40,197 bases of DNA from Flavonifractor plautii ATCC 29863 (GTDB taxonomy: Bacteria > Bacillota > Clostridia > Oscillospirales > Oscillospiraceae), in NCBI RefSeq assembly GCF_000239295.1, contig NZ_JH417797.1, positions 1 through 40,197 of the forward strand. The letters are read 5' to 3'. The notes beneath the pieces are model-generated. The model had not been told where the DNA came from. It did no database searches and saw nothing but the letters and a program-made list of their open reading frames with translations. The position numbers and the translations under genes were made by a program. Positions 6,788-24,567 of this stretch are shown here, piece by piece. How positions within the stretch are numbered: position 1 is the first letter of the stretch; the number at the start of each line of letters is the position of its first letter.

Positions 6788-6805
6788 CAAACGGGCGCAG
6801 GATAT

Positions 6806-6846
6806 AAAACGAGAGCCGACTTGTTTGACAAGTCGGCTCTCGTTTT
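6806..6846. terminator. Bidirectional terminator after the exporter operon
   Basis: An 18-bp perfect stem (6806-6823 with 6829-6846) with a 5-base loop, whose ends are AAAA on the left and TTTT on the right. It works for the plus-strand exporter operon and for the minus-strand catalase. Confidence 0.88.
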
Positions 6847-6953
6847 GGCCTATGATAAGAATGCACCCCTTAAGACCCTGCGGAGCAAGGGCTTGAGGGA
6901 AAGGATGGTTTATAAAGCAGAAGAACTCTTGACCACACGGCCCCTGCCGCTTT

Positions 6954-7619
6954 TTATTTTGCAAACTTGGGCGCGGATACTTCATTTCCCGCGAATGCAT
7001 TGGGGCCGGGGTTGGACAGGGAGAAATACATCTTTGCCGCCTTGGTTGTACCGAAGTCCTGATTGGAGCCGCTGTCCTGCACCTCATTAAAGGCATCCCG
7101 GAACATTTGGTTGTGCGCCTCCTCACGGTTGAGCAGGAAGTCGATGGTTTCCCGTACCTTTTTGTCCTCAATCTGGCGGTAGAGGTATTCGTATACTACC
7201 TTGGCCCGCTGCTCGGATGCAATATTGCTCAGCAGATCCGCGCAGAGATCTCCAGTGACAGTGACATAGTCTGCCGTCCAGGAATAGCCGGAGGCGTTGA
7301 TGAGACCGGGATTCAAACCAAGCAGAACATGTGTTTCGATCTCGCCTGCCTGGACCTTGTCTGCCTCCACGTCATGACCGTTGAGCAGATTGATGGTCTG
7401 AGCTACCATTTCCATGTGGCTCAGCTCCTCCGCCGCGATATCCATAAACAGATCCTTGATCTTGGGGTTTCTGATGCGGAAACTCTGGGACATATATTGC
7501 ATGGCAGCTTTTAGCTCGCCGTTGCCGCCGCCGAGCTGCTCCTGCAATAGTGCGGCATACTGAGGATTGGGCTGCTCCACTTCTACTGGATGAAACAGTT
7601 GTTTTTCGTGCTTGAACAA
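6954..7619 (-). CDS. Manganese catalase (small, CotJC-like)
   Basis: A di-manganese catalase family protein of 221 residues, which breaks down hydrogen peroxide. The ferritin-like four-helix core supplies metal ligands in GNGELKAAMQY (Glu), AAEELSHMEMV (Glu and His), IASEQRAKVVYEYL (Glu) and REEAHNQMF (Glu and His). The N-terminus FKHEKQLFHPVEVEQPNP is typical. The start is TTG 7619, since GGAAGGGGTGA lies just upstream. The reading from 7733 adds 38 residues that match nothing in the family. Codon use is less GC-rich than in the preceding operon. Many sporulating anaerobes carry this family as a coat-associated CotJC, so a general peroxide defence and a spore-coat role are both possible. Confidence 0.85.
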   Translation of the reverse strand: MFKHEKQLFHPVEVEQPNPQYAALLQEQLGGGNGELKAAMQYMSQSFRIRNPKIKDLFMDIAAEELSHMEMVAQTINLLNGHDVEADKVQAGEIETHVLLGLNPGLINASGYSWTADYVTVTGDLCADLLSNIASEQRAKVVYEYLYRQIEDKKVRETIDFLLNREEAHNQMFRDAFNEVQDSGSNQDFGTTKAAKMYFSLSNPGPNAFAGNEVSAPKFAK

Positions 7620-7773
7620 GCATATCACCCCTTCCGATTGGTTGTGTTTAGCTTTCCGCAATTTAGAAAAGCTATGCGGGCTCTGCTCGTTTTGCATGAT
7701 ACAGGCGGCAGATTGAAATACCTTTACCACCAAAAGAATACGATATGCATTAGGAAAGAAAGGTCATATATAC

Positions 7774-8646
7774 TTACAAGGGAGCAATCAAGCCGACTTT
7801 ACCAGCGCAAATTTTTATACGATGCCGCACTAGAGAGATGACGGCCTCCCGCGCGGGGCCCCCATATTTCTTGGGATCGTAGAGCGCGGCGTCATGAGCC
7901 AGACAGTCCCGTACCGCCTGGGTATAGGCGGCCCGAAGCTCCGTGGCGAAGTTGACCTTACACACACCCATGGATACCGCACGCTGCACATCTTCGTCCG
8001 GGACACCGGAGGAGCCATGGAGCACCAGGGGGATATCTACCGCTTCCCGGATCTGAGTCAGCCGCTCAAAGGCCAGCCTGGGCTTGCCCTTGTAGAAACC
8101 ATGTGCGGTCCCAATGGCTACGGCTAAAGAGTCGATTCCCGTTTCCCGGACGAAACGGGCCGCCTCGCCTGGATCTGTGTAAAGATCCTCACCTGGCTTG
8201 ACCTCCAGATCATCCTCCTTACCGCCCAGTTTCCCCAGCTCCGCTTCCACACAAGGCCGGGAAGACATCCTGCTTGCCATCTCCACCACTCTGCGGGCCA
8301 GGGCGATATTTTCGTCCAGCGGCAGTTTAGAGCCGTCGATCATCAGGGAGGTATAACCGTCTGACGCGGCCTGCTGACATAGTCCAAACCGGTCTCCGTG
8401 ATCCAGGTGCATAGCCACTGGCACAGACGCCTTGCCGGCCATAGCACGGGCCATGGCCGCGAAGACTGCTGGCTCCGCGTATTTTAATGTGGATGGCGTC
8501 GTCTGAAGTATGACCGGCGCGTGCTCGGCCTCCGCCGCCGCGATGACAGCCTGCATCATCTCCATATTTTCTACATTGAACGCGCCTACCGCATAACCGT
8601 TTGCACGGGCATCCCTCAAAAGTCCTCTGCTGTTTACCAGTGCCAT
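7774..8646 (-). CDS. gatY: Class II tagatose-1,6-bisphosphate aldolase, catalytic subunit (GatY/KbaY-like)
   Basis: A zinc-dependent class II aldolase of 290 residues that splits tagatose-1,6-bisphosphate (or the fructose epimer) into dihydroxyacetone phosphate and glyceraldehyde-3-phosphate. Metal-binding histidines are seen in AMHLDHGDR, in IGTAHGFYKG and in VLHGSSGVPDE; the catalytic Asp is in LDHGD, and the acidic VEAELGKLGGKED loop is present. It is the last gene of the minus-strand operon, 52 bases after gatZ. The gatZ neighbour favours tagatose over fructose bisphosphate. The C-terminal tail (IKICAGKVGLIAPL) is a little longer than usual. No convincing terminator follows. Confidence 0.88.
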   Translation of the reverse strand: MALVNSRGLLRDARANGYAVGAFNVENMEMMQAVIAAAEAEHAPVILQTTPSTLKYAEPAVFAAMARAMAGKASVPVAMHLDHGDRFGLCQQAASDGYTSLMIDGSKLPLDENIALARRVVEMASRMSSRPCVEAELGKLGGKEDDLEVKPGEDLYTDPGEAARFVRETGIDSLAVAIGTAHGFYKGKPRLAFERLTQIREAVDIPLVLHGSSGVPDEDVQRAVSMGVCKVNFATELRAAYTQAVRDCLAHDAALYDPKKYGGPAREAVISLVRHRIKICAGKVGLIAPL

Positions 8647-8698
8647 ATAATATTTCCACCCTTTCCGTATTCAAGGCTTTGCTTTCTCCAGATTTGCT

Positions 8699-10021
8699 TC
8701 AGTCCCTGAGTACCGCATAGAGATAGTCGTCGATGCAGTCCCCCACACGGTCCATCAGGAGGTCTTCAGCCTTGGGAGGCAATATACCCGCATGGACTCT
8801 GGCGTATTGGACTGGCATATACTGGCTGATCAGGGCCATTGGGATGCCTGCTGTGTTCAAATTATCCAGCAGGAGGCGGAGCGCACCCTGTACCTTGCTG
8901 TTGGTCAGGTAATACCGGGCCCGGTCTGAGTAGCTGAAAGCCCGGGCGTACCGCTTCTCCGGCATAGAGCCATGATAATATTTGGTCCACTGGCCCTGGT
9001 CCTCCAGCATGACCTGCTCCAGGATCTCACGAAAATGGGAACACGGGAAATCCATCATCCCATACAATTCCCGTTCGATCTGCTCCAGGGCAAACAGTCC
9101 TTCCCGGAGGGCGAAGGTTAGAGCTGGTCCGACCTTGAGAATGGCGATCCCGTCCTCTACCATCTTTCGAAGGCATTGCCGCGGCTGATAATCCGTGGAA
9201 TGTCCTTCAAAGACCAGGTTGGGGTGCCGCTTTAAATGCTCCGTCAGGCTGTGGGCGGCTGTCCGGTCATATTCGATCACGCTTTCGTCGGCAAATTCCA
9301 CCCCGGGCTGCACCACAATGGCAACCACACGCTCCCATGCCGCCTCCAAATGATTGGAGCAGAACGCCGCCCGGAACGTGGACAGCGTGGCTTCGCAGTC
9401 CTCCGGCGCGGTTACGGTTACGCTGTCCTCATTTTCCTGGGCGCCGCCTGGGATGGGCACCTCACTGCCGATGATATAGACCGGCGCAGGGGCTTCCGGG
9501 TGCCACGCACTGTATTGGGCAAAAGCTTCCTCGGCGATACGGCAGAGTTGGGCGCCGCGGTGGGCGATCACAACATCCGATAACCGCTCATTGGGAGCGT
9601 CGTCCGCCAGGCGCATGCTGGTATCAATATGTATTTTGGAAAAGCCAGCCAGTACATAGGAGCGGATCAGTTCGCCTGCGTTTTTCATTGCCTCAGCCTC
9701 GGGAAAATGGGTCCAGGTCAGCGGACCCAGGTGGTCGCCGCCGCAGAGCAGTTTGTCAATCGGGAAATTTTCCTCTTCAGCTAAACGGTTCAGAAACGCC
9801 CGGAACGCTACCGGGGTCATGCCGGTATAGCCGCCGTTCTGGTTCACTTGATTTGCAGTCGCCTCTACCAGCACCACCGTATCACGGTCCTTGGCCCGGC
9901 GAAGGGCCGCCCGAATTACATACTCGTTGGCACTGCAGCAGGAATAGAGGCCCATTTCACGATTCTGTCCGCGCTTTTGCAAGAGTTCAGAAATCGGATT
10001 TTGAATTTGTAGATTGGTCAT
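8699..10021 (-). CDS. gatZ: Tagatose-bisphosphate aldolase accessory subunit GatZ/KbaZ
   Basis: A GatZ/KbaZ/AgaZ family protein of 440 residues. In enterobacteria it has no aldolase activity of its own but is needed for full activity and stability of GatY/KbaY. Older literature annotated it as a tagatose-6-phosphate kinase. Family motifs seen include GLYSCCSANEYVI, GGYTGMTP, LLCGGDHLGPLTW, DTSMRLADD and VFEGHSTDYQ. ATG 10021 has GGAAAGGGGAAG close upstream; the 21 extra residues from 10084 run through an intercistronic hairpin and are not likely to be translated. The GatY/GatZ pair marks the operon as a galactosamine, galactitol or tagatose-type pathway. Confidence 0.88.
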   Translation of the reverse strand: MTNLQIQNPISELLQKRGQNREMGLYSCCSANEYVIRAALRRAKDRDTVVLVEATANQVNQNGGYTGMTPVAFRAFLNRLAEEENFPIDKLLCGGDHLGPLTWTHFPEAEAMKNAGELIRSYVLAGFSKIHIDTSMRLADDAPNERLSDVVIAHRGAQLCRIAEEAFAQYSAWHPEAPAPVYIIGSEVPIPGGAQENEDSVTVTAPEDCEATLSTFRAAFCSNHLEAAWERVVAIVVQPGVEFADESVIEYDRTAAHSLTEHLKRHPNLVFEGHSTDYQPRQCLRKMVEDGIAILKVGPALTFALREGLFALEQIERELYGMMDFPCSHFREILEQVMLEDQGQWTKYYHGSMPEKRYARAFSYSDRARYYLTNSKVQGALRLLLDNLNTAGIPMALISQYMPVQYARVHAGILPPKAEDLLMDRVGDCIDDYLYAVLRD

Positions 10022-10046
10022 AGCTTCCCCTTTCCTTTTGCACAGA

Positions 10047-10075
10047 GGGCACCCGGCGATAGCCGCCGGGTGCCC
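10047..10075 (-). other. Intercistronic stem-loop between symporter and gatZ
   Basis: A 12-bp perfect GC-rich stem (10047-10058 with 10064-10075) with a 5-base loop in the 98-base gap. There is no T run on the minus-strand 3' side, so it is more likely an RNA processing or stabilising element, or a weak attenuator, than a full terminator. Confidence 0.55.
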
Positions 10076-10119
10076 CATTGGCACGTTCTGTTTTCAGACG
10101 ATAAAATTTAAGAACTTCT

Positions 10120-11511
10120 TCATTGGGTCTTGCTGGCTTTGCGGGCGGCCAACTCCTCCATGATCTCAGCGTGGCGCTTCTCGGTCAGCTTATAGAACAG
10201 CATGGGGACAACTGCAAGGATTATAATTCCAGCACTGACTAGCGTATATACAAAGTGGAAAGAATTTAATACGTTCACCGGCTGTACGGTCTCTTGGGGA
10301 ATGTAGCCAGTCAGACCGATTACAGCGGCAACAGCGATACCTGCGACTGCCATGACACACTTGGTCACGAAGCAACGGGTAGAGGTAATCATAGCTTCAT
10401 TGCGCTGGCCGGTTTTCCATTCGCCATACTCAATTGTATCCATCATCATCGCGTTGACACAGACCATGACAGCTCCAACGCATACAGTTGAGACAGAAGA
10501 TGTGGCAAAAAGTACAATAGCGTTATGATACCCGGCAAAGTAGAGAACGAGGCTGGATATTGTCATGAGCCCGGCAAAGAGAAACATGCAATTCTTTTTC
10601 CCAATATGCTGAGAGAGAAAGGTGAAGATCAATGCGCCTACAACCATACCAACCAGATTAATTAAGTTCAGCACAGTCATATAACCCAGGCTGCCCCAGT
10701 TATATACACAATAATAATAATTGAGATAGCCTTTCAGCATCATACCTAGCAGGCAAAAGATATTTGAGATTTGGATCAGGAGCAAGGGCTTGTTTTGAAA
10801 AATATTTTTTAGTGCCAGTTTGAGCTCAAACTTCTCACTGTCGTCTGGTACCACATGCTCCCGTACCAACTTGAAGGAAATCAGGTACATGGTCACACCC
10901 CAGACGGCAACAGCAAGTGCAAGGAAAAAGTAAACATACCAGTTAAATTCGCCAAAGAAGGCCAGTGCCATTGGCATCACTAATCCAATAATTCCAGTAA
11001 TGGTATTGGACGCGGTGGTAGTGAAGCCAACAATTTCCGAGCGCTCTTTCGTATTGCTGGTCATTGCCGCAGGCAAGCTCCAGAATGGTATATCCACAGA
11101 GGTAAACACAATACTGCCTGTGATGATATACATAATACCTGCAAAAATGCACAGTCCGATGGTGCCGATATCGGGCTTAAAGAAAGAGAGTGCTAAACAG
11201 ATCCCCATAAGAGGACCTGAGCGGAGAAGCCACGGGCGAAACCGGCCCCACTTACTCCTAGTACGGTCTGCAATGATACCCATAGAGATATCGGTAAAGG
11301 CGTCAAAGAATCGAGCCCCACCAAAAAGGAACGCTAGGAAGCCGGCGGGCAGCTTTAGAATATCCGTTAAAAACGGAGTAGTCCAGGTAGACCACAAGGT
11401 ATACATAGAATCATGCCCGAGTACACCAATTGCGTGGCCGAGCTTTTCCTTCTTGGTACATTGCCTTGGTTCTTCCTCTAATTTAGCTTCCTTAACGACT
11501 TCGGTAGACAC
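10120..11511 (-). CDS. GPH-family sugar:cation symporter (MelB-like MFS)
   Basis: A twelve-helix secondary transporter of 463 residues in the glycoside-pentoside-hexuronide family. The signature is FDAFTDISMGIIADRTRSKW followed by GRFRPW, with the paired acidic residues that bind the coupling cation in MelB. The start is GTG 11511, with AAGGAGGG upstream. It lies between the GH4 glycosidase and gatZ in one operon. This carrier does not phosphorylate its substrate, which fits the sugar kinase at the head of the operon. Likely cargo is galactosamine, galactose or a short alpha-galactoside; the sequence does not decide between them. Confidence 0.88.
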   Translation of the reverse strand: MSTEVVKEAKLEEEPRQCTKKEKLGHAIGVLGHDSMYTLWSTWTTPFLTDILKLPAGFLAFLFGGARFFDAFTDISMGIIADRTRSKWGRFRPWLLRSGPLMGICLALSFFKPDIGTIGLCIFAGIMYIITGSIVFTSVDIPFWSLPAAMTSNTKERSEIVGFTTTASNTITGIIGLVMPMALAFFGEFNWYVYFFLALAVAVWGVTMYLISFKLVREHVVPDDSEKFELKLALKNIFQNKPLLLIQISNIFCLLGMMLKGYLNYYYCVYNWGSLGYMTVLNLINLVGMVVGALIFTFLSQHIGKKNCMFLFAGLMTISSLVLYFAGYHNAIVLFATSSVSTVCVGAVMVCVNAMMMDTIEYGEWKTGQRNEAMITSTRCFVTKCVMAVAGIAVAAVIGLTGYIPQETVQPVNVLNSFHFVYTLVSAGIIILAVVPMLFYKLTEKRHAEIMEELAARKASKTQ

Positions 11512-11598
11512 AAAATTTCCCTCCTTGTTTCTTCCTCAACGAGTTGCGGGGCAAGCGCGAATAACCTTGGCATTGGTCCCTGTGGCTCTTGCATTTAT

Positions 11599-12981
11599 TT
11601 AATGATACTCCGGCAACCAGTCGCCGTGGGCCTGTATGAGGTCGTCCACAAGGCTGCGGATCTCATCGATGGTCAGTTCGCTCCCGGCATGGGGGTCCAG
11701 CATGGCGGCCTGATAGATGTACTCCTTCTTCCTGGTGAGAGCGGCATCTACGGTGAGCTGGTGCACCTCGATCTGCCGCCGATTCAGCGCGGCGAGCTGA
11801 TTGGGAAGCGGCCCCATGTGGCAGGGGGAGAGATGACCCTCGTTTACCATACAGGAGACTTCCACACAGGCATCGAAGGGCAGGTTGTCAATAAGCCCAG
11901 TATTGAGAACGTTACCAGCAAATCCAAAGGTTCTGCCGGTCTCCAGTGCCTCGATGATGCCGGCGGCGTACTCGCTGCTCCTCGTGTGGGTCAGGTTCTC
12001 ATTGTGGACCAGATGCTCGGCCTGCTGCTTCCACCGCGCAATCTGATCGCGGCAACGGCGGGGGTACTCATCCAGAGGGATGTGAAAGCGGTCGATAAGC
12101 TCAGGATGGTCCTTTTTGATGAACCAGGGGTAATATTCGCTGCTGTGCTCGCTGGATTCTGTGACGAAGTAGCCGAACTGCTTCATGATTTCGAAGCGAA
12201 CCATATCATGATGATTATCAGGAGTAAACTGCTCGGCCACTGACGGAATTCTGTCCGCATACTCAGGATGTAACTCACGCAATGCAAGCGTGGGGGCGTA
12301 AATTGGTCCCTCCTGGGCACGCTTGCGGATGATGGGATAGAGATCCTCGCCGTTGCGGCTAATCTCTAATAGCCAGGCCATGTGGTTGATGCCCGAAATC
12401 TTGTAAGAAACGCCGTCCCAGGGCATGCCAAGCTCGGCGAGGAGTTCAGGTACACAGGCCTGGTGGGAGTGGCACAGACCAACTGTATTGACAGAACTGG
12501 CTCGGAACATCGCCAAGCATAGCATGGACATGGGGTTTGTATAATTGATGAAGAGTGCATCAGGACAGACCTTCTCCATGTCTTTCGCAAAGTCCAACAT
12601 TACAGGGATGGTGCGCAGTGCCCGGAACATTCCACCGATGCCGTGCGTATCTCCGATCGTCTGGCGCAGTCCATATTTTTTGGGAATTTCAAAGTCTGTA
12701 ATCGTACAGGGGTCATATCCTCCCACTTGAATGCAGTTAATGACGTATTTTGCTCCACGTAAAGCATCCAGCCGGTCTGCATATTTGACGACCTTAGCCT
12801 TTCCGTCGTTAGAGTTCCGGTTAATATTAGAAAGCATCATATAGGACTCTTCCAACCGCTGATGGTCAATGTCATAGAGCGCATACTCAAACTCGCGCAT
12901 AGCATCCGTCGTAATGCAGTCGCCTAAAACATTTTTTGCAAAGACGGTACTGCCTGCGCCAAGAAATGTAATTTTATCCAA
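11599..12981 (-). CDS. GH4 family alpha-galactosidase-like enzyme (MelA type)
   Basis: A cytoplasmic NAD- and manganese-dependent glycosidase of 460 residues. GH4 enzymes work by a redox elimination mechanism. The Rossmann start ITFLGAGSTVFAKNVLGD is followed by NYTNPMSM (about 153-160) and GLCHSHQ with the metal-binding Cys and His; GINHMAWLL carries the second metal His. The start is TTG 12981, with AGGAGG 8 bases upstream. Best match is the alpha-galactosidase subgroup (MelA) rather than the phospho-glycosidases, because the cognate transporter is a symporter. In this operon it might act on imported alpha-galactosides (such as group B fragments) or galactosaminides; which one is not visible. 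Confidence 0.88.
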   Translation of the reverse strand: MDKITFLGAGSTVFAKNVLGDCITTDAMREFEYALYDIDHQRLEESYMMLSNINRNSNDGKAKVVKYADRLDALRGAKYVINCIQVGGYDPCTITDFEIPKKYGLRQTIGDTHGIGGMFRALRTIPVMLDFAKDMEKVCPDALFINYTNPMSMLCLAMFRASSVNTVGLCHSHQACVPELLAELGMPWDGVSYKISGINHMAWLLEISRNGEDLYPIIRKRAQEGPIYAPTLALRELHPEYADRIPSVAEQFTPDNHHDMVRFEIMKQFGYFVTESSEHSSEYYPWFIKKDHPELIDRFHIPLDEYPRRCRDQIARWKQQAEHLVHNENLTHTRSSEYAAGIIEALETGRTFGFAGNVLNTGLIDNLPFDACVEVSCMVNEGHLSPCHMGPLPNQLAALNRRQIEVHQLTVDAALTRKKEYIYQAAMLDPHAGSELTIDEIRSLVDDLIQAHGDWLPEYH

Positions 12982-13015
12982 ATGAGTAACCTCCTATTTT
13001 ATTTGGAATGAAACA

Positions 13016-16000
13016 TTATGCCTTAGTGGTATAAGTCAAATAATCCAAATCAATAACCGGAGTATCGCACACAATGCGGATCGTGTGCGAACCGGCTGGT
13101 AGATCAGTCTTTTGAAACAAAAGCTTTCCCACAGCCGCAGCTCCGTTAACATTTACCTGCTGCACAAACTCATTATCGATATAAACGCTGGCAACACCGA
13201 AGTTGGAATCATTTTGTCCATACCAACGGATTTCGCTTCCAGTAAATTCGAACTCGACCGAGGCGCCGGCACTAATGGCATAACGGGCGGTTCCTTCCTG
13301 AAAGACGTCATGATAGTCATCATTCCATACGCCTGTATACACCAGTTGGGCGTCCATTGCATCAACAGTAACCGTCGTCTCCGGCGGCGTTGGTTGATCT
13401 TGCTCTGGTAGATAAGAAATATAGTCCAAATTGATGTTCCAGGCGTTTTGTACAAGGCGAATGGTATGTTCTCCTTCCTCCAGTCCCGTACGCTCAAACA
13501 TTAGCTGCCCAGTTGCTTCCTGGCCGTATAGGATTATGTTTTCCACTAACTCTCCGTCTAAATAGACATCTGCAGTGCCAAAATTGAAGCTCATCTCTGC
13601 ATACAGGCGTACGGCTGTACCACGGAAAGTCAGTTCAGCATAAGCGCCGGCTTCGTCTGTGCGCATTGCGTTTCCCATGTAGAACTCGCTGTTGTGATAC
13701 TCTTCCCAATTCCCAACATAAGTGATCCGATCCGAGAGCGCATCGACCTTTTCATAGATGGGTTCAAGGGTAGCAGCTTCATATGCAAAGCGGTCAATAT
13801 CAATCACTCCGCTCTTGCACACAATTTTAATGGTATGCTCGGCAGCCGGAAGATCAAGCGCTTCAAAAAGACATACGCCTGCTTCTGCGGCCCCATTCGC
13901 ATCAACTGTTGTTTTCAGTTCATCGTCCAAATAAACTTCAGCCGTGCCAAAATTGGTATCCCTCTGGCCATACCAGCGAATGGAAGTTCCAGTAAAGGAG
14001 AATACAACCGAAGCATCGGTACTGTTAGTATAACGTGCAGTCCCTTCGCTGAAAGATGCGTTGTTGTCATCATGCCATGTCCCTGTGTAAATAAGAGCCT
14101 CGTCTCTGTCATCAACAGAGGTGAAACCATAATCAGGGTCAACAGGTTCTGGATCCGGTTCCGAAATTTCCACCGCTTTAACCAGTAGATAGTCGGAAAA
14201 ACGTGTATTGAATACAGCGTTATCACCCATCAGGTTTGTTGCCACGACACGATCATTGACATAGTCAACAATCCTATACATTTTATTTGGATCTAGCCCC
14301 TTCAACTCAATATCTGGATAGCCAGTGGGGCTATATTTGCTCCCATCTTTGTAGAAGGCATAGTACATAACCCCGTCTTTCTCCACCACATAGGTTTCGT
14401 AAGGGTCAAAACCATAACTGTAAAGATCGCCAATAAACCGGCCTTTCTGCAACTGAACTGTATCCGCAATCCCAAGCCATTTTTCATATTCTTCCTTGGC
14501 AGTACCGCTAAGGTCACGTTTTTCAATGAGAACAGAGCCCGTACCGACGGCACTTGGATACCAGATGTTATTGTGGTCGGCTGTAACAGGGAAATAATCT
14601 CCCATCAGTGCCTTGTAGGCTTTCACGCGTCTCCTTGTTTGATCCACAGAAGTGGGGTCAGCCGTAGCAATCTGTGTCATATATGGTAAACTATAGTAGT
14701 CCTGGGGCGTACCGCAGTTGCACAACAAATTGAACACATTGGGGTCGTTGGCCACCATAGCCTCATAAGAGACGCGGTATATCTCGGATTGCTTTTCAGT
14801 GGATTCTTCTGGCGAGGCGTGGTTATGTGCAGGATTGTAGCATTCAGGCATACTCCACACATAATCTCCCTTGAAGCCATCGAACCCCCAATCATTCATT
14901 GCACGGTTTACAAAGTCAACTTGGCTTGCAATCGCACCATCCGCCATAGGGCAAAGTGCATATCCCAAGCTGGGATTGGTCCCACCACCAGGAGTAGGAA
15001 GCCTTGCAGGTCTTCCATCTGCATCCATAACGAAATATTCAGGGTGTTGCTGATAGAGTATACTATCGATCCCGCCGTCACAAGGTCTCCACCAAAGGAG
15101 TGCAGTCATACCATGCTCATGAATTGCATCTGTCAGCCGCAACGCATCGGAGGCTCCATTTGGAAACTTTTCTGGATTTAAGGCCCAGTCTCCTGCATTG
15201 GTATACCAACCATCATCCAAAGTGATCTGCTTGACTCCGGCTGCCTGAAGTTCATCCAATTTGCCGATTATTAAGTCGATCGTCCAGTTAAACCCCCAGC
15301 CCCAGCTTTCCCATCGGAGATCATAGCTGCTATCAGGAATATCCCCAGGTGCAGGCATAATCACGCCCAAGTGATCCATTGCATTTTTGTAACCTCTCAA
15401 GCCGTTATAATAGTCACCCGGATGGACTACAGCAAAGCTCTCACCAATTTCGATCACGCTTCCGGCGGCAATGACTTTGCCTGGCCACCCGATAGAAACT
15501 TGAGCTGAATCACTGGTTTCCTGAACCGGAGTATGTACCTCCCTTCTGGTTGCAGAAGCATCGCCAACGGTAATCCCTCCATCAGCAATGTAAATATCTG
15601 ACACAGGAATACTTGCAGCCGTGTCATCCTGTTTATTCTCCCTACTGAACTTGCCAGAGTCGGTCAGGTCAATCTTTTGAAGCGTATCATAGTAGTGCAT
15701 CGGCCCCTCACCGCCGCCGTTATAGCTCCAGATACGATCTTCCGCACCATAAAGCTCATACACACTGCCAATGAACCAAGACACTTCCACATCAGAAGCT
15801 CCTGCCTCATAGGATGTTGCAGTATATACCACACCCTCCTCGATATCAGAGGTCTCCAGCACATAGGTACGAATTAGGCCCGTGCTCATGCTCTGAGAGG
15901 TAATGGTCATTCTCTGACCGCTGCCCATCACTCCGCTGGTGCTCTGCTCCACATCACATGAAATATGGCTGAAGTCCTGAACCTCCTGCCCTCCAATCAC

Positions 16001-16252
16001 TGGCCCTCCCAATGGAGAAGGCTTGCTCATCTGGATAAGCCCAGATCCCTCTGTGCGGTACAGAGTGATTGTCTGCCCGTCCGCGTCATAAGTGACGCGG
16101 ACGCCATTGCCGGCAATGGCATAATCACCTTCTGCAATCAGTCCTGCGTTGCCGGTGTCCGTTGCAGGCGCCGCCGCAAAAGAAGCGGTGGGCAAGAGCT
16201 GCAGACACAGCATCGTACTGAGCGTGAGTGATATGAACTTTTTAACACGCAT
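13016..16252 (-). CDS. Exported GH36-like alpha-galactosaminidase with three C-terminal binding modules
   Basis: A secreted clan GH-D glycosidase of 1078 residues. A signal peptide occupies about 1-27, a GH36-type N-terminal sandwich about 40-300, and the (beta/alpha)8 barrel about 305-600. The motifs are LRWESWGWGFNW, GVKQITLDDGWY, WGFDGFKGDYVW and ADPTSVDQTRRR. By family alignment from memory, Asp463 (in KGDY) is the likely nucleophile and Asp532 the acid/base. Three copies of one beta-sandwich module follow at 713-825, 835-948 and 962-1076. It sits 57 bases after the deacetylase gene. Architecture and partner match the published F. plautii galactosaminidase, which removes GalN left after deacetylation of blood group A antigen. 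A plain alpha-galactosidase or alpha-N-acetylgalactosaminidase is the alternative. Confidence 0.85.
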   Translation of the reverse strand: MRVKKFISLTLSTMLCLQLLPTASFAAAPATDTGNAGLIAEGDYAIAGNGVRVTYDADGQTITLYRTEGSGLIQMSKPSPLGGPVIGGQEVQDFSHISCDVEQSTSGVMGSGQRMTITSQSMSTGLIRTYVLETSDIEEGVVYTATSYEAGASDVEVSWFIGSVYELYGAEDRIWSYNGGGEGPMHYYDTLQKIDLTDSGKFSRENKQDDTAASIPVSDIYIADGGITVGDASATRREVHTPVQETSDSAQVSIGWPGKVIAAGSVIEIGESFAVVHPGDYYNGLRGYKNAMDHLGVIMPAPGDIPDSSYDLRWESWGWGFNWTIDLIIGKLDELQAAGVKQITLDDGWYTNAGDWALNPEKFPNGASDALRLTDAIHEHGMTALLWWRPCDGGIDSILYQQHPEYFVMDADGRPARLPTPGGGTNPSLGYALCPMADGAIASQVDFVNRAMNDWGFDGFKGDYVWSMPECYNPAHNHASPEESTEKQSEIYRVSYEAMVANDPNVFNLLCNCGTPQDYYSLPYMTQIATADPTSVDQTRRRVKAYKALMGDYFPVTADHNNIWYPSAVGTGSVLIEKRDLSGTAKEEYEKWLGIADTVQLQKGRFIGDLYSYGFDPYETYVVEKDGVMYYAFYKDGSKYSPTGYPDIELKGLDPNKMYRIVDYVNDRVVATNLMGDNAVFNTRFSDYLLVKAVEISEPDPEPVDPDYGFTSVDDRDEALIYTGTWHDDNNASFSEGTARYTNSTDASVVFSFTGTSIRWYGQRDTNFGTAEVYLDDELKTTVDANGAAEAGVCLFEALDLPAAEHTIKIVCKSGVIDIDRFAYEAATLEPIYEKVDALSDRITYVGNWEEYHNSEFYMGNAMRTDEAGAYAELTFRGTAVRLYAEMSFNFGTADVYLDGELVENIILYGQEATGQLMFERTGLEEGEHTIRLVQNAWNINLDYISYLPEQDQPTPPETTVTVDAMDAQLVYTGVWNDDYHDVFQEGTARYAISAGASVEFEFTGSEIRWYGQNDSNFGVASVYIDNEFVQQVNVNGAAAVGKLLFQKTDLPAGSHTIRIVCDTPVIDLDYLTYTTKA

Positions 16253-16309
16253 TTCCGAGTCCTCCTTCTCTATAATCCTTTGTGTTGAAAGTCGCCTGCT
16301 AGAATCGCT

Positions 16310-18628
16310 TTATTCTCCCACATACGAAAAATAGTCGAAGTCAACCACCGGAGACACACAGACGATGCGGATGGTATGCTTCCCATAGGCCAGACCGTCC
16401 GCCTCAAATAGAAGCTGCTGAGCCGCCGCCGGCCCATACACATTTACCTCCCCTGCCAGAACGCCGTCCACGTATACCTCCGCAGCGCCGAAATTTACAT
16501 CATTTTGACCATACCACCGAATGGCCGTCCCCACAAATGTGAACTCCACGGACGCGCCGATCTCGTTGGTATAACGGGCCGTCCCTTCATAAAAGCTTCC
16601 GTTGCTGTCGTTATTCCATGCACCCGTAAACACCAGGGAAGCATCCCGGTCATCCACCGGGACATATACGGGCGCAGGCTCGATTGGACCATACGCATAC
16701 ACATTGAGTTCGGCGGCAGTACCGAACCCACCTGCGCCGGCAATCGCCTTGAGCTCCAGGCCGACGGCTTCTACCGGTGCAAAGCTCACGGTTTTATCCT
16801 TGGCATCGAGCGCCCAGTCTGAGCCGGAGGCGACTAGGTCCTTGCTGCCGTCCTGGTGGATGGCGTACAGCTCATACTCCGAAATTATGCCATTTGTCCC
16901 GTTTTGACGTGGGGTATAGACGAAGCGGCCGACGGTATAGGGCTGGTCAAAGGAAACGGTGATACTCTGCGGCAGTTCATCTTTGGGAGCATAGTTGGTA
17001 TGCCATATTGTGCGGACGTTTCCATCGAGGACATTGGAGGCGGGGCCCTCCGTCGTCCCGCCGTAGACGCTGGTGGCGGTTGCCGTCATATTGGACTGGG
17101 GAATCAGCGTGTACGGATTCTCCACCACTGCAATTTCAAGGTCGTCGGACAGGCCCTCCCGGGTCTCCGCCATGATGCGCGCTGAACCGACAGAAACGCC
17201 TGTAATGGTTCCAAACTCATCCACCGTCGCCACATCCGGATCACTGGAGGTATATTTCACGACCTGATCAGAGGTGTCCACAGGCGCGAAACTGGTTTCC
17301 AGCTTCATGACATCCCCTGTGGGAAGGGAAGTGGTCTCAGCACTCAGCATAAGGGAATTGCCGGAAACCAGGGCGGGCGTCGTGTAGCCGGGGTCATCCA
17401 GCAGCACGCGCATCATCTCAACAAAACTGTTTTCCGCATAGCCGATCCTCCAGATGCGGTCATCCTCACTTTTGGCCTGAATGGTCAGATTCCCGGAGGA
17501 ATCCGCGACCATCTTGTTATTGGTGTTCTTCTGCAGGGCACTGTACCAGACGCGCATGGTACCATCTCCGGCGGAACTGCCTGGCTCATAGTAAAAACTG
17601 GAGCGATAGATCTGGAAATCATCCCAACTGCCGTCTGGCCCGGGGGACAGCAGGGGCTTGGTGCCCACCTGCGCCCAGTTGACTCCATCCTTTGATGTGG
17701 TCAGGTGCAGGACAGAGCCATCCGGATTTCGGCCGGCAAAGCACTGGGAAATACAAACAAACTCCTTCAAATCTGGAACATACTGGACATCCTGATGCCA
17801 GGGGGCCAACTGCTGCCCATTCTCGTCAAGCCCCAGGAAGCCGTTGACGCGGACTGGCTCACCCCAGGTGATCCCGTCGTCCGAATAACGCATTTCCACG
17901 AAGTTCGCCTGACCATTCTGATACCCCACGTCGCCGGTATTGTTGGCCCACAGGATGAACACATCCCGGAAGTCATCGTAGACAATAGTGGGAGAGAGCA
18001 TATCGTAGCGGTCTGGAGAAGCAATGGCGGTAATGAAGTCATCCTCTCCATCCGCAACCTGACGCTCCGCGTCGGAGGTGGGCTTCGACCATACGCGGGT
18101 CATCTCATCATAAGTCACGGGGACGCCCCAATGTACGCCGTCATAGGAAATCCGCAGCCGGACTTCGGCCCCAACGCCTCCGCCCTGGTCATCCGCCCAG
18201 TTCCAATAGGCCATCATGGCATCGTATTCCGCGTTATAGACCATATCAGCGTCGCAGTTGTGGTAGCGGGTGCTGGGTGGCTGCGGCTCAATGGGATTGG
18301 AAAGCCCCTCCGGTTCTACCCAATGCACTCCGTCGCTGGAGGCAACGATGGACGGGTTTTCGTAGATGGAGATCCGCATCACGTTGGGCGTATAAACGGC
18401 CCAATAGCGATAGCCGTTCCACGGTTCTTCCAGGACAACTACGTCCGGGTGAGTCACCTGGTCATCGGCATGCGCACTGTCGCTGTAATAGGCGGGAAAA
18501 TCCTGATATCCGGGGGCCTTGTTCAATGCGGACTCGCTGGAGTCTGCCGCAAGCGCCGCGGTTGGAAATAACTGGGCCGTCACGAGTAGGCCCGTTAGAA
18601 GCGAAACAGCTTTCCTTCGATTTCTCAT
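16310..18628 (-). CDS. Exported N-acetylgalactosamine deacetylase (five-bladed beta-propeller, Big2, CBM32)
   Basis: A secreted enzyme of 772 residues, predicted to remove the acetyl group from terminal alpha-GalNAc (blood group A antigen). Signal peptide 1-28. The beta-propeller (about 40-420) carries Asp-box motifs SSDGVHW, SYDGVHW, SDDGITW and SKDGVNW at 97, 161, 249 and 312. A bacterial Ig-like group 2 domain follows at about 428-503, an F5/8C (CBM32) domain at 505-645, and the module shared with the GH36 neighbour at 658-770. Glu90, His123, Asp126 and His278 fall where the active-site and metal residues of the F. plautii enzyme (Glu64, His97, Asp100, His252, as I recall) would be with a constant offset of 26. 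Without that knowledge it would be called a GH43/sialidase-like protein. Confidence 0.85.
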   Translation of the reverse strand: MRNRRKAVSLLTGLLVTAQLFPTAALAADSSESALNKAPGYQDFPAYYSDSAHADDQVTHPDVVVLEEPWNGYRYWAVYTPNVMRISIYENPSIVASSDGVHWVEPEGLSNPIEPQPPSTRYHNCDADMVYNAEYDAMMAYWNWADDQGGGVGAEVRLRISYDGVHWGVPVTYDEMTRVWSKPTSDAERQVADGEDDFITAIASPDRYDMLSPTIVYDDFRDVFILWANNTGDVGYQNGQANFVEMRYSDDGITWGEPVRVNGFLGLDENGQQLAPWHQDVQYVPDLKEFVCISQCFAGRNPDGSVLHLTTSKDGVNWAQVGTKPLLSPGPDGSWDDFQIYRSSFYYEPGSSAGDGTMRVWYSALQKNTNNKMVADSSGNLTIQAKSEDDRIWRIGYAENSFVEMMRVLLDDPGYTTPALVSGNSLMLSAETTSLPTGDVMKLETSFAPVDTSDQVVKYTSSDPDVATVDEFGTITGVSVGSARIMAETREGLSDDLEIAVVENPYTLIPQSNMTATATSVYGGTTEGPASNVLDGNVRTIWHTNYAPKDELPQSITVSFDQPYTVGRFVYTPRQNGTNGIISEYELYAIHQDGSKDLVASGSDWALDAKDKTVSFAPVEAVGLELKAIAGAGGFGTAAELNVYAYGPIEPAPVYVPVDDRDASLVFTGAWNNDSNGSFYEGTARYTNEIGASVEFTFVGTAIRWYGQNDVNFGAAEVYVDGVLAGEVNVYGPAAAQQLLFEADGLAYGKHTIRIVCVSPVVDFDYFSYVGE

Positions 18629-18770
18629 ATCCCTTCTATTCCTCCTTTGTAGTCCGTCCTTATCCTGTTAACGACGCCTGATCCGGCAGTTTCATATTTG
18701 GAGCTATCCTCTCCCCTCTGTTTTCAAATCGTTTCTCTCAGACAAGGCAAACGATCCTTGTAAGAAAAAT

Positions 18771-19808
18771 TTACAGGGATATGTAGGCGTCCAGGCCCTT
18801 GGGCTGGTCGGGGTTTCCGCCTAGGGCAATTGCTTTCAGCAGAGCTGTCATTTGCGCGACATAGATGAACAGAATGCCCCATGCGGCGAACTCGCCGACT
18901 TCCGGAATCTGAATATGGGCTGCCGCGTCGTACCTATTTTCTGTGCAGTGGGAAATCGTGACCACAGGGCCGCCGCGCTGAATCACATCTTTCATCATAG
19001 CGCTTTGGAGCTTTTCTTCACCGGGCCGCAGCAACGCGAGAGTCAGAGTCCGTTTTCCACTGACCACGATAGGCCCGTGACGGTAATCCAGCAGATGGAA
19101 ATAGCGGCCTGTCAGCATGGAGATCTCGGTAAAGGCGAGGGCGCCCTCCTCCGCGATGCCGCAAATGGGGCCGTCCGCCAGCACCACCACATTGTCCCAA
19201 TCAAGGTTTGCGATCTCGGCCAGCACCGGCCGGTACTTCAGCTGAAACGAGGTGCTCTCCCGCATGGCTGCCAGGACACTCTCTCGGAGGCGGTCATCCC
19301 TTGCGTATTCCGCCGCCAGAAGCAGTGTGGAGGCATACAGGTTCGTGACAGTTCGGGTCTGGCAGACACTGTCATCATGGCACCAGTTCAGCGTCAGGTT
19401 CAGGTCGCACAAGGGCATCAGATCATTCCCATCCTCCGTTGTGATGGACACCGCTGGACATCCGTGAGCCTCTTTGATGTGCTTCAGGGCCCATACCATT
19501 TCAGAGGTCTTTCCGGACCGTGAAAGCAGGAGCACGATGCTGCCCTTCACCGTCTCATACCAGAATAGAGGGTCCACAATGTAGTCGCCGGCGGCGATCG
19601 CATTTGCGCTGGTTCCCGGGAGCGACGCAAACAGAGATGCTGTGCTCTTCGCCAGCATATAGCTGGAGCCGCAGCCCAAAATGGTAAACTTCTTTTGCTG
19701 GTTTTCCTGGAAGAACTGCTCCAGATTTTTTTTGTTCTTCTCAAAGTATTGGCAGGTGTAGTTCAGGGACAGCGGGGTATCCAGAATCTCAGCTTCGGTC
19801 AAAAACAT
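18771..19808 (-). CDS. SIS-domain amino-sugar isomerase/deaminase (AgaS-like)
   Basis: A cytosolic double-SIS protein of 345 residues, related to AgaS, FrlB and the GlmS isomerase half. Seen: TILGCGSSYMLAKS (first SIS phosphate loop, about 42-55), LLLSRSGKTSEMVWAL (Ser-rich sugar-phosphate loop, about 94-109) and DYRHGPIVVSGKRT (second SIS, about 240). Most likely it converts galactosamine-6-phosphate to tagatose-6-phosphate plus ammonia, which joins the kinase to the GatYZ aldolase. I chose ATG 19808, which has GGAGAATG upstream and lies 22 bases after the kinase stop. The longer reading from 19904 overlaps the kinase gene. Confidence 0.85.
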   Translation of the reverse strand: MFLTEAEILDTPLSLNYTCQYFEKNKKNLEQFFQENQQKKFTILGCGSSYMLAKSTASLFASLPGTSANAIAAGDYIVDPLFWYETVKGSIVLLLSRSGKTSEMVWALKHIKEAHGCPAVSITTEDGNDLMPLCDLNLTLNWCHDDSVCQTRTVTNLYASTLLLAAEYARDDRLRESVLAAMRESTSFQLKYRPVLAEIANLDWDNVVVLADGPICGIAEEGALAFTEISMLTGRYFHLLDYRHGPIVVSGKRTLTLALLRPGEEKLQSAMMKDVIQRGGPVVTISHCTENRYDAAAHIQIPEVGEFAAWGILFIYVAQMTALLKAIALGGNPDQPKGLDAYISL

Positions 19809-19830
19809 AACATCATTCTCCTTCGGACAT

Positions 19831-20766
19831 TTAACTGGGTGATAAAGGGAACCGTTCCATGGCCAACATGAGCGCGCCCTCGGTCGCGGAGTATTTGGGT
19901 TCACAAAGTATGCAGTTCAGCTCTTCGGCCTTTTTACGGAGAGGGGCCAGGATGAATTCTCCGGCATGGAAGATACCGCCGGAGTAGGAAACGCTGATGG
20001 GCTCGGCGGAGAAACGAAGTTTTGCCTTGAGCGTGCGAATCATGAGCGCCAACTCAAGCGCAGCCGTTTCATACAGCGCGGCAGCGGCTGTATCGCCAGC
20101 CCGGGCGGCCTGTAGGACGTACCGCTGGAACCCCGCGACTTTTTCCCGATAGGGGGCAAATTCCCGGACAATCCGATCAATAAACTGGTAGTCCTCCGTC
20201 AGGCCAAACTCCCCGTGGACTAGATCATAGAGCGGACCCCTCGGCAACCGGCCATCGGCCTCTTTGGAAAACAGACTCATTCCCTGCCGACCAATCCAGT
20301 AGCAGGAGCCCTCATCCCCAAAAAACTCCACCCACCCCCCACAGCGGGCAAATTCTTTGTCACACCCGCGTCCAAATGCGATAGAACCTGTGCCGGAAAC
20401 AATATGGATTCCCTCCCCACAGGCGAGGGATCCAGCCCAGCCAACTTCACCGTCATTCACAACATACACTGGGACTGGAGTCAGAGCATCCGTCAGCAGG
20501 CGAACGATCTCCCGGTCATTTGCTGGGTTTTCGCCATAACAGGGCATACCCACGCAACACCCGGCACAATCCTGTGGGCTTACCCCGCCCCCGGAGAGGG
20601 CCTCCCGTACCACCTTCGTGATCAGGGCAACGGATTCCGGAATACCGATGGACTGATAGGAACAGGTCGGGTAGGTCATGGTTTGGATCGGAACACTGTC
20701 AGCGGTGGAGATCGCGACGGCGGTTTTTGTGCCTCCGCCGTCTACCCCGACATACCATTGCTTCAT
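19831..20766 (-). CDS. BadF/NagK-type sugar kinase, probable galactosamine kinase
   Basis: A cytosolic ASKHA-fold kinase of 311 residues, in the BadF/BadG/BcrA/BcrD and GlcNAc kinase family. The N-terminal phosphate loop is VGVDGGGTKTAVAI (7-20); VVNDGEVGWAG carries the catalytic Asp region; VSGTGSIAFG is the second phosphate motif, and a late adenosine motif YSGGIFHAG is present. It is the first gene of the operon, with TGGAGGAG just before the ATG. The transporter does not phosphorylate, so this kinase is the obvious step that traps galactosamine (or GalNAc) as the 6-phosphate. Substrate preference is inferred from the operon only. Confidence 0.82.
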   Translation of the reverse strand: MKQWYVGVDGGGTKTAVAISTADSVPIQTMTYPTCSYQSIGIPESVALITKVVREALSGGGVSPQDCAGCCVGMPCYGENPANDREIVRLLTDALTPVPVYVVNDGEVGWAGSLACGEGIHIVSGTGSIAFGRGCDKEFARCGGWVEFFGDEGSCYWIGRQGMSLFSKEADGRLPRGPLYDLVHGEFGLTEDYQFIDRIVREFAPYREKVAGFQRYVLQAARAGDTAAAALYETAALELALMIRTLKAKLRFSAEPISVSYSGGIFHAGEFILAPLRKKAEELNCILCEPKYSATEGALMLAMERFPLSPS

Positions 20767-20832
20767 ATTGGCTCCTCCATGTGGTACTTTTAACTGTAAT
20801 AACGCGTGCGGATCGGCTGCTTATGTACATAC

Positions 20833-20859
20833 TGTATAGTTTTTTGCTAATTTTGTCTA
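20833..20859 (-). promoter_or_regulatory. Possible promoter of the galactosamine operon
   Basis: Read on the minus strand, TAGACA (20859-20854) and TATACA (20838-20833) are separated by 15 bases, which is short. The leader to the kinase ATG would be about 60 bases. Weak call; no better pair was found in the 323-base gap. Confidence 0.35.
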
Positions 20860-20890
20860 TGGTTTTGGGTAAAATAGGCCAACTACCCTC

Positions 20891-20933
20891 AGTTGTATGC
20901 ATTTTGAATCGATACAACTGACCTGAGTTGTAT
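20891..20933. promoter_or_regulatory. Candidate GntR operator: 22-bp palindrome plus a third half-site
   Basis: ATACAACT (20912-20919) and AGTTGTAT (20926-20933) form a palindrome with a 6-base centre that is itself almost symmetric. A third half-site AGTTGTAT lies at 20891-20898. The cluster is midway in the divergent gap between the operon and the GntR gene, the expected place for an operator controlling both. Confidence 0.6.
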
Positions 20934-20959
20934 CTCTTTTTTAACAGGGAAATATTTCC

Positions 20960-20988
20960 TTGTAAATTCACTCCCCATATGATAAAAT
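20960..20988 (+). promoter_or_regulatory. Promoter of the GntR regulator gene
   Basis: TTGTAA (20960-20965), a 17-base spacer and TAAAAT (20983-20988). The -35 box starts 27 bases after the palindromic operator. The leader to the ATG is about 95 bases. Confidence 0.6.
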
Positions 20989-21089
20989 AATTGGCAAAAT
21001 AGTAATAGTCTCTAAAAATACTTGTAAGGATCTATGGGGCGATTGGCTATCTGAAGTGACGTGAAGTAGCGGCAAGCGGGGGGTGCGGT

Positions 21090-21836
21090 ATGGCTCAAAG
21101 GCCGGTCTATATAGACGTTTACACGGAGATGCTTCGTGATATACAGACGGGGCTCTATCCGGAAAATTCACTGTTCCCCCCCGAAGAAAAGTTGTGCCGG
21201 AAGTATAACGCAAGCCGTAGCACTCTCCGGCGTGCACTCAACATGCTGAAAGAAACCGGTGTACTTTACTCGGTCCAGGGTAATGGAACCTATATTAAGC
21301 CGTTCGTATTTACCCAGCCCCTATCTGATTTCTACTCGTTTACTGATACGCTTAAAAGCAGCAATATTCTAATTCAGAATTCTGTCATTCACTATGATCT
21401 GGTCAAAGCCGATAAGTCTTTGGCGATTGAAACCGGGTATCAGGAGGGAACAGTGTTCCATAAACTGCTCCGGCTCCGCTCGGCCAGGACGTATCCTCTG
21501 ATGCTGGAAACCACCTTTCTTCCCCAAAGCCGTTTTTTGACGCTGGACACGGAGGCGCTCTCCTGCGGCTCTCTATATGAGTTTTTGCGAGAACAGTATA
21601 ACTTCCATGCAGATCGGGCCACGGAAAAATTCCGGCCTGTTATGCCGCGCTCAGAAGAAAGAACGCTGTTGCATATCTCATCCAATGTTCCGTGTACTCT
21701 TTTGGAGCGATACAGCTATGAGGGCAATGTCCTGATTGAATATACAAAATCCATTGTCCGCGGCGATAAATATGCGTTTCGGATTGAGTTGGCAAACAAC
21801 TCGGTGATTCCTCTCCCGGAACAAAGGGAGCGCTGA
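21090..21836 (+). CDS. GntR/HutC-family transcription regulator with UTRA domain
   Basis: A sugar-responsive regulator of 248 residues. An N-terminal winged helix-turn-helix (about 5-72) carries the family phrases LFPPEEKLCRKYNASRSTLR and GNGTYI. A UTRA ligand-binding domain (about 95-240) has the typical ...LLRLRSARTYPLMLETTFLP and CTLLERYSYEGNVLIEYTKS stretches. Related regulators such as NagR/YvoA and AgaR-like proteins sense amino-sugar phosphates. It is transcribed away from the galactosamine operon, with palindromic half-sites between them, so it most likely represses the operon and itself until galactosamine-6-phosphate or a similar ligand appears. Effector not shown by sequence. Confidence 0.88.
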   Translation: MAQRPVYIDVYTEMLRDIQTGLYPENSLFPPEEKLCRKYNASRSTLRRALNMLKETGVLYSVQGNGTYIKPFVFTQPLSDFYSFTDTLKSSNILIQNSVIHYDLVKADKSLAIETGYQEGTVFHKLLRLRSARTYPLMLETTFLPQSRFLTLDTEALSCGSLYEFLREQYNFHADRATEKFRPVMPRSEERTLLHISSNVPCTLLERYSYEGNVLIEYTKSIVRGDKYAFRIELANNSVIPLPEQRER

Positions 21837-22018
21837 GTACATATTGCATTCCAGTTATCTTTATCCTCACAGTTTTTTGATATCTGTGGTTAGATGGAAA
21901 ACCAGCCATATGAGTCTGTAGAGGGGAGGACGTGCTGTCCTCCGCATCCAGCCACCGGCGGCAAGGGCCGGGGCCGACCATAGTTCCGCCCATGCTCGGC
22001 CGGTATAAAATAAAGCTG
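21837..22018. other. Gene-free stretch after the GntR gene with several hairpins
   Basis: No coding frame is convincing. Short stems are visible, such as GGAGGAC/GTCCTCC near 21923-21941 and GC-rich complementary segments near 21950-22002. They precede a strong terminator at 22019. This could be a structured 3' UTR or a small RNA; I do not recognise a known riboswitch. Confidence 0.3.
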
Positions 22019-22064
22019 CGCCCCATGCCATTCCATTTTCGGACGGCATGGGGCGTGTTTTTTT
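22019..22064 (+). terminator. Terminator downstream of the GntR gene
   Basis: An 11-bp stem CGCCCCATGCC (22019-22029) with its complement at 22045-22055, followed by a run of seven or more T residues ending at 22064. Confidence 0.8.
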
Positions 22065-22215
22065 GTGCGGGAATCACTTTTTGTCGGATAACTTTTAAAT
22101 TAGATCCAGGAGGTTGGTTTTTCTGCTGGCTTATGGGGCGCAGTCAGAGCACGGTGCGTAGATACTTTTCAAAGAGACGGTCAACGGCCACGAAAGCTGA
22201 AAGATACAGGAGACT

Positions 22216-23424: not shown

Positions 23425-24551
23425 GAAAGGACGGCCTTCCCAAGACGAAAAATGTGCTGGCCAAGACCAAAGGTGAGTGCGTGGATAAATTGAAAACACT
23501 GAAAGACACCATTGCACCTGCAAATCCGTCCAAGGTTCGGGCAGATATGCCATTTGGGGAGTGTCTGAACTATTGGTACGAAACCTACAGCAAACCATAA
23601 ATCCGGCCCAGAACCCATCGAACCTACGAAGGGTATCTCCGGCTATACATCAAACCAAGGCTAGGCGATATTCCACTGAACAAACTAACAGAAAATGATA
23701 AGCAGCAAATTTGTGTGTGGATGAAGCCAGATGAGTATGCCAATGGAAAAGGTATTGCTGACAGCCAGATTCGATGTTGCCGCAGTCTATGCCGGCAGGC
23801 ACTGGAGAAAGCAGCTGAGGAGCATTTGATCCTCTGCAACCCGGCCATTGGATGCAAGTGTCCGCCTGCAAAACGAGAAGAGATGAAAATTCCCTCAGGG
23901 GAAACTATGCAGAGAGTACTCATCCAGGCCAAAGAGGAAAATTACTATGAACTCTTCCCTCTGGAGTTTGCCACTGGCCTGCGACTGAGGGAACTGGCCG
24001 CCCTTCAGTGGGACGATTTGAACTTAACGACTGGAGAGCTGCGGATCGACAAGCAAGCTAGCATTGTCGGATCAGAGGTAGTCATCTGTGAACCCAAAAC
24101 AAAAGCGGCGGTTCGTACCATGATCCTGCCGCCATCCGTCAGGCGAGTGCTGGCAGAGTATAAGACCAAGGTGGATTCACGATGGATGTTTCCATCCCCA
24201 AAGAAAGAAGACTTGCCCATGCGTCCATCCTCGCCCCATAAGCGCCTGCACAGAATTTTGGATTATGCGGGATGTGAACGGGTGAGATTTCATGGTCCGT
24301 GCCATACTTTTGCAACCAACGCCTAGGCCTACGGAATGGACATCAAGACCCTGCCGACAATTTTGTGTTATGTATCCAGCGCTACTACCCTGAACACATA
24401 TTCCCACATAACCGACGAGATGCAGCAATTGGCGGCGGAAAAGATTGACCGTGATACCGCGAAAGCAGAGGTCAAACAACCAGAAGAGCGGAGAGAACAT
24501 TCCATGACAAACTTCCAAGCAAGGAAACGATGGAGTCGCAAAGCAAGCTGA
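23382..24551 (+). pseudogene. Decayed tyrosine recombinase (integrase), copy 2
   Basis: A second integrase of the same broad family in a single reading frame, broken by TAA at 23598-23600 and TAG at 24324-24326. The first part (MGRKPKNGEGTAQLRKDG) is the typical arm-binding start. After the TAA come RTHRTYEGYLRLYIKPRLGD (core-binding) and FATGLRLRELAALQWDD (first catalytic Arg kept). HxxR has become HGPCHTFATNA, so Arg is replaced by Cys. The Tyr motif survives as TLNTYSHITDEMQ. The expected GH motif reads LCYVSS, another loss. Two stops plus two altered catalytic positions argue for a dead gene. A terminator follows. Confidence 0.85.
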
Positions 24552-24567
24552 AATGTTGCAAAACCGG

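Follow-up and report, generated by a model that had tools for sequence, protein, structure and literature searches.

Rahfeld et al. reportedly described a two-enzyme A-to-O conversion in Flavonifractor plautii in 2019. The F. plautii pair converts the A antigen to the H antigen (PMC11762096, PMC10154618, PMC10981661). Experiments by others showed that the deacetylase turns the terminal N-acetylgalactosamine (GalNAc) of the A antigen into galactosamine (GalN), and that an enzyme of glycoside hydrolase family 36 (GH36) removes GalN, after which the H antigen remains. The pair is under development for universal donor blood and organs (PMC11762096, PMC10981661). In the Escherichia coli aga/gam system, AgaS is the GalN-6-phosphate deaminase, KbaY the aldolase and KbaZ its helper subunit (PMC3668189). 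PMC5583593 relied on AgaS as a signature gene for recognizing the GalNAc/GalN pathway in gut genomes; a word count there gave zero mentions of Flavonifractor. Blood-group glycans are cleaved by GH98 enzymes, which act as endo-beta-1,4-galactosidases (PMC8730463, PMC10154618). Here, the genes around the enzyme pair were analyzed in a 40,197-nt stretch of F. plautii ATCC 29863 (GCF_000239295.1, contig NZ_JH417797.1, positions 1 to 40,197; hereafter the window).

Eight minus-strand genes span 7774–20766 of the window in the order kinase, SIS-domain protein, deacetylase, GH36 enzyme, GH4 enzyme, GPH symporter, GatZ and GatY. With a probability of roughly 0.75, they constitute the route by which F. 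plautii obtains GalN from glycans of blood-group-A type, and they lie on an acquired island. This reading is supported by the near-identity of the exported pair to solved proteins; by the layout of eight same-strand genes, with gaps of 22–142 nt and no minus-strand terminator-like site in them; by the kinase, SIS, GatY and GatZ types, which jointly match the steps of aga/gam (PMC3668189); by a putative operator that is above chance and private to the locus; by a GH4 gene and a BadF kinase gene on the strand of a deacetylase-GH98 gene in an uncultured Lachnoclostridium metagenome-assembled genome (locus L025); and by the presence of PfkA in the genome.

Exported enzymes, gene layout and predicted control

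FpGalNAcDeAc, the exported GalNAc deacetylase, was located at 16310–18628 and carries CBM32 and Big_2 domains. It was identical to PDB 6n1a at 480 of 482 residues (28–509), with differences at 319 and 368; Pfam found F5/8 and Big_2 domains only, and the identity of the protein rests on 6n1a. The exported GH36 galactosaminidase FpGalNase (13016–16252; Melibiase PF02065) was identical to PDB 9awt at 670 of 672 residues (27–698), with differences at 624 and 625. All nine active-site residues of GalNase named in PMC11762096 (W317, D346, D347, W387, K461, D463, Y464, C513, and D532) were present, and V284 and P566 were the letters given there for the reference sequences. Three positions considered as active-site residues of the deacetylase did not carry the expected letters and were set aside. 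The initial annotation had equated the two exported enzymes with the published F. plautii pair and proposed a protein search against it; the search gave near-identity, and low identity is excluded. The A-to-O chemistry at this locus is therefore already known. Putative export signals were recognized by eye on both proteins, and neither contained the sortase motif LPXTG.

The order and short gaps reported in the initial annotation were borne out by the open reading frames (ORFs) and Pfam domains. The start of the SIS gene is likely ATG 19808, rather than GTG 19904 within the kinase gene, and that of GatZ is likely ATG 10021. With these predicted starts, the seven intergenic gaps from the kinase to GatY measured 22, 142, 57, 34, 87, 98, and 52 nt, and a purine-rich stretch resembling a Shine-Dalgarno sequence was seen by visual reading 5' of all eight starts. 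Between 6.7 and 21.3 kb, 16 terminator-like patterns were observed against a shuffled mean of 13.5 (standard deviation 4.1), and none of the five on the minus strand fell inside any of the seven gaps. The gene layout suggests that the eight genes form one transcription unit.

A divergent GntR/UTRA regulator gene (21090–21836, plus strand; PF00392, PF07702), for which no specific NCBIfam cut-off was reached, is the probable controller of the operon. The palindrome search gave a putative two-copy operator, ATACAACT-N6-AGTTGTAT, at 20877–20933, with a perfect copy at 20912–20933 and a copy with three mismatches at 20877–20898. The palindrome occurred twice in the window against 0.04 expected, and the half-site pattern (at most one mismatch) matched nowhere else in the 3.82-Mb assembly. 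The regulator gene and the operator both lie outside 7774–20766, with the operator placed between the regulator gene and the kinase gene. A promoter-like site 5' of the kinase gene (TAGACA, 17, TACAGT; 20831–20859, minus strand) is weak, since it fits 9 of 12 consensus positions and 20 such matches were observed in the region against 13.7 expected.

Inner genes and the proposed route

Profile scans with Pfam and NCBIfam used curated cut-offs. In the operon, NCBIfam cut-offs were passed only by the GH4 enzyme, the GPH symporter and a broad aldolase model. The BadF/NagK-type sugar kinase (19831–20766; PF01869), a proposed galactosamine kinase, scored 72.4 bits with the nearest model, NagK (NF046058, cut-off 370), and its nearest solved chain was 8zo3, a MurNAc/GlcNAc kinase. 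The SIS-domain protein (18771–19808; PF01380), a proposed GalN-6-phosphate deaminase/isomerase, scored 83.9 of 580 bits with GlmD and 72.1 of 529.2 bits with AgaS (TIGR02815), and its nearest solved chains were 2dec, 2cb0, and 1j5x. Since both scores are far under the cut-offs, the protein belongs to the superfamily and is not a canonical AgaS; the AgaS label was rejected on this score. These assignments also bear on whether the inner genes serve glucosamine or mixed amino sugars, with the SIS protein acting as a deaminase of glucosamine-6-phosphate and the kinase phosphorylating glucosamine or GlcNAc. The top NCBIfam names, GlmD and NagK, point that way, both weakly, and glucosamine-6-phosphate deaminases and GlcNAc kinases occur among the nearest solved chains. 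However, the operon also encodes a GatZ-type subunit together with a GatY-like aldolase, and GalN is what the exported enzymes release; such a glucosamine pathway is considered unlikely.

The GatY-type class II ketose-bisphosphate aldolase (7774–8646; PF01116) passed TIGR00167 (306 bits, cut-off 215.6), and missed the specific models NF009374 narrowly (364.9 of 383 bits) and TIGR01858 (331 of 443.55 bits). The GatZ/KbaZ-type aldolase subunit (8699–10021) was over the cut-off for PF08013 and under it for TIGR02810 (516.7 of 568.8 bits).

The cytosolic GH4 enzyme (11599–12981; PF02056/PF11975), the sole GH4 detected in the genome, is a proposed alpha-galactosidase or alpha-galactosaminidase, and the GPH cation symporter (10120–11511; PF13347) scored 317.4 bits with TIGR00792 (cut-off 231.35). 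The two proteins could instead belong to a broader operon for terminal galactose and galactosamine, in which GH4 would be an ordinary alpha-galactosidase, uptake would be melibiose-like, and B antigen and dietary alpha-galactosides would be used as well. GH4 reached 613.3 bits against the cut-off of 486 for the alpha-galactosidase subfamily (PRK15076), and TIGR00792 spans many sugars; yet no galactose-specific (Leloir type) gene was found among the eight, and GH4 again adjoins a deacetylase-GH98 protein in L025. The broader role is regarded as possible, though doubtful.

In the GalN route, the GPH symporter would import GalN, or a short sugar bearing GalN or galactose that the cytosolic GH4 would then open. 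The BadF-type kinase would convert GalN to GalN-6-phosphate, and the SIS enzyme would deaminate and isomerize this to tagatose-6-phosphate. A housekeeping phosphofructokinase would add the second phosphate, the GatYZ-type aldolase would cleave the bisphosphate to trioses, and the divergent GntR/UTRA protein would govern the unit via the two-copy operator. For the second phosphorylation, the genome holds six PfkB and four PFK matches. Two of the scanned PfkB proteins weakly resembled a tagatose kinase model (129.1 and 117.1 of 420 bits), and no LacC-type kinase appeared among the matches listed for them at E 1e-20. A PfkA protein (L016) was over the cut-off of TIGR02482. AgaZ has been proposed as a tagatose-6-phosphate kinase (PMC12118421); here, PfkA is the more likely candidate of the two.

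The initial annotation had described the pathway as complete, with inner genes that use the released sugar. The use of the sugar held up as a sensible route with a link to L025. The word complete did not, for a tagatose-6-phosphate kinase gene is missing from the operon and the AgaS and kinase scores are as low as those given above.

Relatives of the deacetylase and the probably acquired island

The scan of genome contigs for the deacetylase gave six relatives, of which four were remote (28–30%). The nearest were in Lachnoclostridium sp. An76 (L024, 57%) and in L025 (about 46–47%). In both loci, the deacetylase was part of a continuous frame, of 1774 aa in L024 (9308–14632) and 1722 aa in L025 (8525–13693), that also holds GH98 catalytic and C-terminal domains; the deacetylase is thus tied to the blood-group enzyme family GH98 in both. 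The GH98 part of L024 had its top scores with 4d6d (426.5 bits), 2wmi (425.2 bits), and 4d71 (424.2 bits), and lower scores with 2wmf (391.8 bits), 2wmg (387.6 bits), and the R. gnavus enzyme (316.0 bits). 2WMI and 4D71 are Sp3GH98, active on A and B, and 2WMG is Sp4GH98, active on Lewis Y (PMC8730463); by a modest margin, the L024 scores favor Sp3GH98 over Sp4GH98. The GH98 part of L025 was too remote (best 2wmf, 122.9 bits, alignment from residue 62) for a specificity to be assigned.

In L025, one strand carries genes for GH4, a BadF kinase, a solute-binding protein, a sensor kinase, GH65, an ORF without a family, and the fusion, together with two further GH98 proteins and another solute-binding protein. 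The L025 GH4 was 34.3% identical over 469 columns and reached 488.3 bits (cut-off 486), and the BadF kinase was 31.5% identical over 311 columns. GH4 and the kinase thus recur beside the deacetylase in one of the two loci, which gives independent support that both serve the use of A antigen. Seven neighbors of the L024 fusion were scanned and contained no sugar genes. A GH36 protein like FpGalNase was absent from the L024 and L025 genomes, save three partial matches of 29–35%. We tentatively suggest that the deacetylase is a portable module of gut Firmicutes for unlocking blood-group A, found beside an exo-galactosaminidase in F. plautii or fused to a GH98 endo-galactosidase in Lachnoclostridium. 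In F. plautii and in the L025 organism, a cytosolic GH4 might act as an alpha-galactosaminidase and the BadF-type kinase as a dedicated galactosamine kinase of a pathway without a phosphotransferase system (PTS). Removal of the acetyl group on the glycan might then yield a semi-private sugar, poorly used by bacteria without the pathway. Two further relatives of the deacetylase were recorded, one of 33% on an unannotated 13.5-kb plasmid record of Subdoligranulum variabile (OY725853.1, 2181–3044) and one of 26% on an IMG/VR viral contig (L030, 10001–10783).

The operon lies within a low-GC island at 6788–24870, flanked by an FtsX gene and a tRNA-Ala gene and delimited by GC and by the edges of similarity. 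The GC content was 51.9% in the island, 65.1% leftward, and 65.9% rightward. The right edge was compared with 13 same-genus stretches upstream of a dnaX-like gene (1–20 kb, four shorter than 3 kb). In seven of the 13, similarity started precisely at 24871, where tRNA-Ala(CGC) has its 3' end; it started 14 and 30 bp further in for two others and beyond the tRNA for two more, and the remaining two stretches were cut short. The tRNA-Ala was located at this site in 8 of 11 stretches scanned. None of the 13 stretches matched 24330–24870, and none encoded a protein matching one of the eight from the operon (E 1e-10). At the left edge, similarity ended at 6774–6779, the end of the FtsX gene, in all five relatives fetched; one of them (L071) encodes a 38% relative of GatY. 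Phage-integrase domains occurred in three ORFs (22216–22785, 22710–23333, and 23715–24326), apparently broken remnants, beside the tRNA-Ala at 24871–24946. An edge on the tRNA side, integrase domains and a shift in composition, the marks of an integrated island, were thus all found.

No direct repeat of the tRNA-Ala end of at least 12 bases was found in the window, the sole repeat-like match being a 14-base inverted one near 30556. No empty site was found, and the two flanks were not adjacent in the relatives examined; in one genome (G085), the dnaX-like and FtsX genes lay about 130 kb apart on one contig, with a partial FtsX match. Acquisition of the island is therefore inferred from edges, composition and distribution. 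The deacetylase was present in 1 of 20 genomes of the genus (9 of the 20 being at least 90% complete and at most 5% contaminated), which is the window's own genome. In the order (5 of 295 genomes) and the phylum (5 of 398), it occurred in the same genome and as four remote relatives (25–29%), and GalNase at E 1e-40 occurred in 1 of 295 genomes of the order.

Island history could also have made the eight genes neighbors without one transcription unit, and the broken integrase pieces, the uneven GC among the genes and the 142-nt gap 5' of the deacetylase would agree with this. Nevertheless, the same-strand order is unbroken, the gaps hold no minus-strand terminator-like site, the biochemistry of the genes fits together, and GH4 and the kinase stand again beside the deacetylase in L025; this explanation is considered improbable.

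At the 3' side of the operon, a Mn-catalase-like gene (6954–7619, minus strand; PF05067; likely TTG start at 7619) is a candidate member; it lies on the operon strand and its GC is low like that of the island. A perfect hairpin at 6813–6839 with T runs on both sides, recognized by sequence reading, is likely a bidirectional terminator. RNA folding was computed for two of the seven intergenic gaps, for the junction between GatY and the catalase gene and for 6840–6960, a stretch that leaves out the hairpin; z values ranged from -0.88 to 0.42. A bacterial large signal recognition particle RNA was located at 25138–25402, between tRNA-Ala and the dnaX gene.

The proposed GalN route weighed and compared with known systems

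Several observations weigh against the GalN route. The kinase, SIS, GatY and GatZ proteins were all under their specific NCBIfam cut-offs, so that sequence does not fix their substrates, and the top match of the SIS protein was the glucosamine-6-phosphate deaminase model. With Pfam and NCBIfam, no tagatose-6-phosphate kinase gene was found among the eight genes, and none was named among the five of six PfkB and three of four PFK proteins scanned (E 1e-20). Both operator copies sit upstream of the predicted -35 box, itself weak, and this position leaves the mode of control ambiguous. GC was uneven across the genes (46.5–58.8%), and they may not share one arrival. In the 21 kb of L025 there was no homologue of SIS, GatY, GatZ, or GPH, and in the 21 kb of L024 only the deacetylase matched and no other operon gene. 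At the level of the operon, the pathway is regarded as a variant of galactosamine catabolism that is well supported though unproven, with de-N-acetylation predicted outside the cell.

The enzyme pair is already known, and the island and the GH98 fusions are added by this analysis. Within the partly covered literature, including PMC11170127 and excluding the founding 2019 paper, no description of the inner genes or of a deacetylase-GH98 fusion was found, which does not prove their absence from print. If the operon works in this way, it would explain what the bacterium gains from its A-antigen chemistry and indicate the inducer, and de-N-acetylation would come before uptake, in contrast to the aga routes known so far. 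The deacetylase-GH98 fusions would represent a second means by which nature opens the A antigen, and could supply additional enzymes.

Compared with the FpGalNAcDeAc/FpGalNase pair (PDB 6n1a, 9awt, 8x1b), the proteins are the same and the enzymes do not differ; the neighboring genes are untreated in the covered parts of the literature. The operon resembles E. coli aga/gam in that a SIS-type deaminase/isomerase would be followed by a tagatose-bisphosphate aldolase with a second subunit. It differs in having a symporter and a kinase in place of the PTS, and in extracellular deacetylation while the sugar is still part of the glycan. A permease and a kinase without a PTS are also found in the Shewanella AgaP/AgaK route, which imports GalNAc and deacetylates its 6-phosphate, whereas here GalN is released outside (PMC12118421). 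The R. gnavus GH98 operon likewise varies among strains, belongs to a gut Firmicute and obtains A antigen from mucin, but it acts by endo-cleavage that frees a trisaccharide (PMC8730463, in whose text the words deacetylase, GH36 and GH4 are absent). The Lachnoclostridium fusions have the deacetylase domain in common with F. plautii; in them it is one domain of a GH98 protein, whereas F. plautii has it beside GH36.

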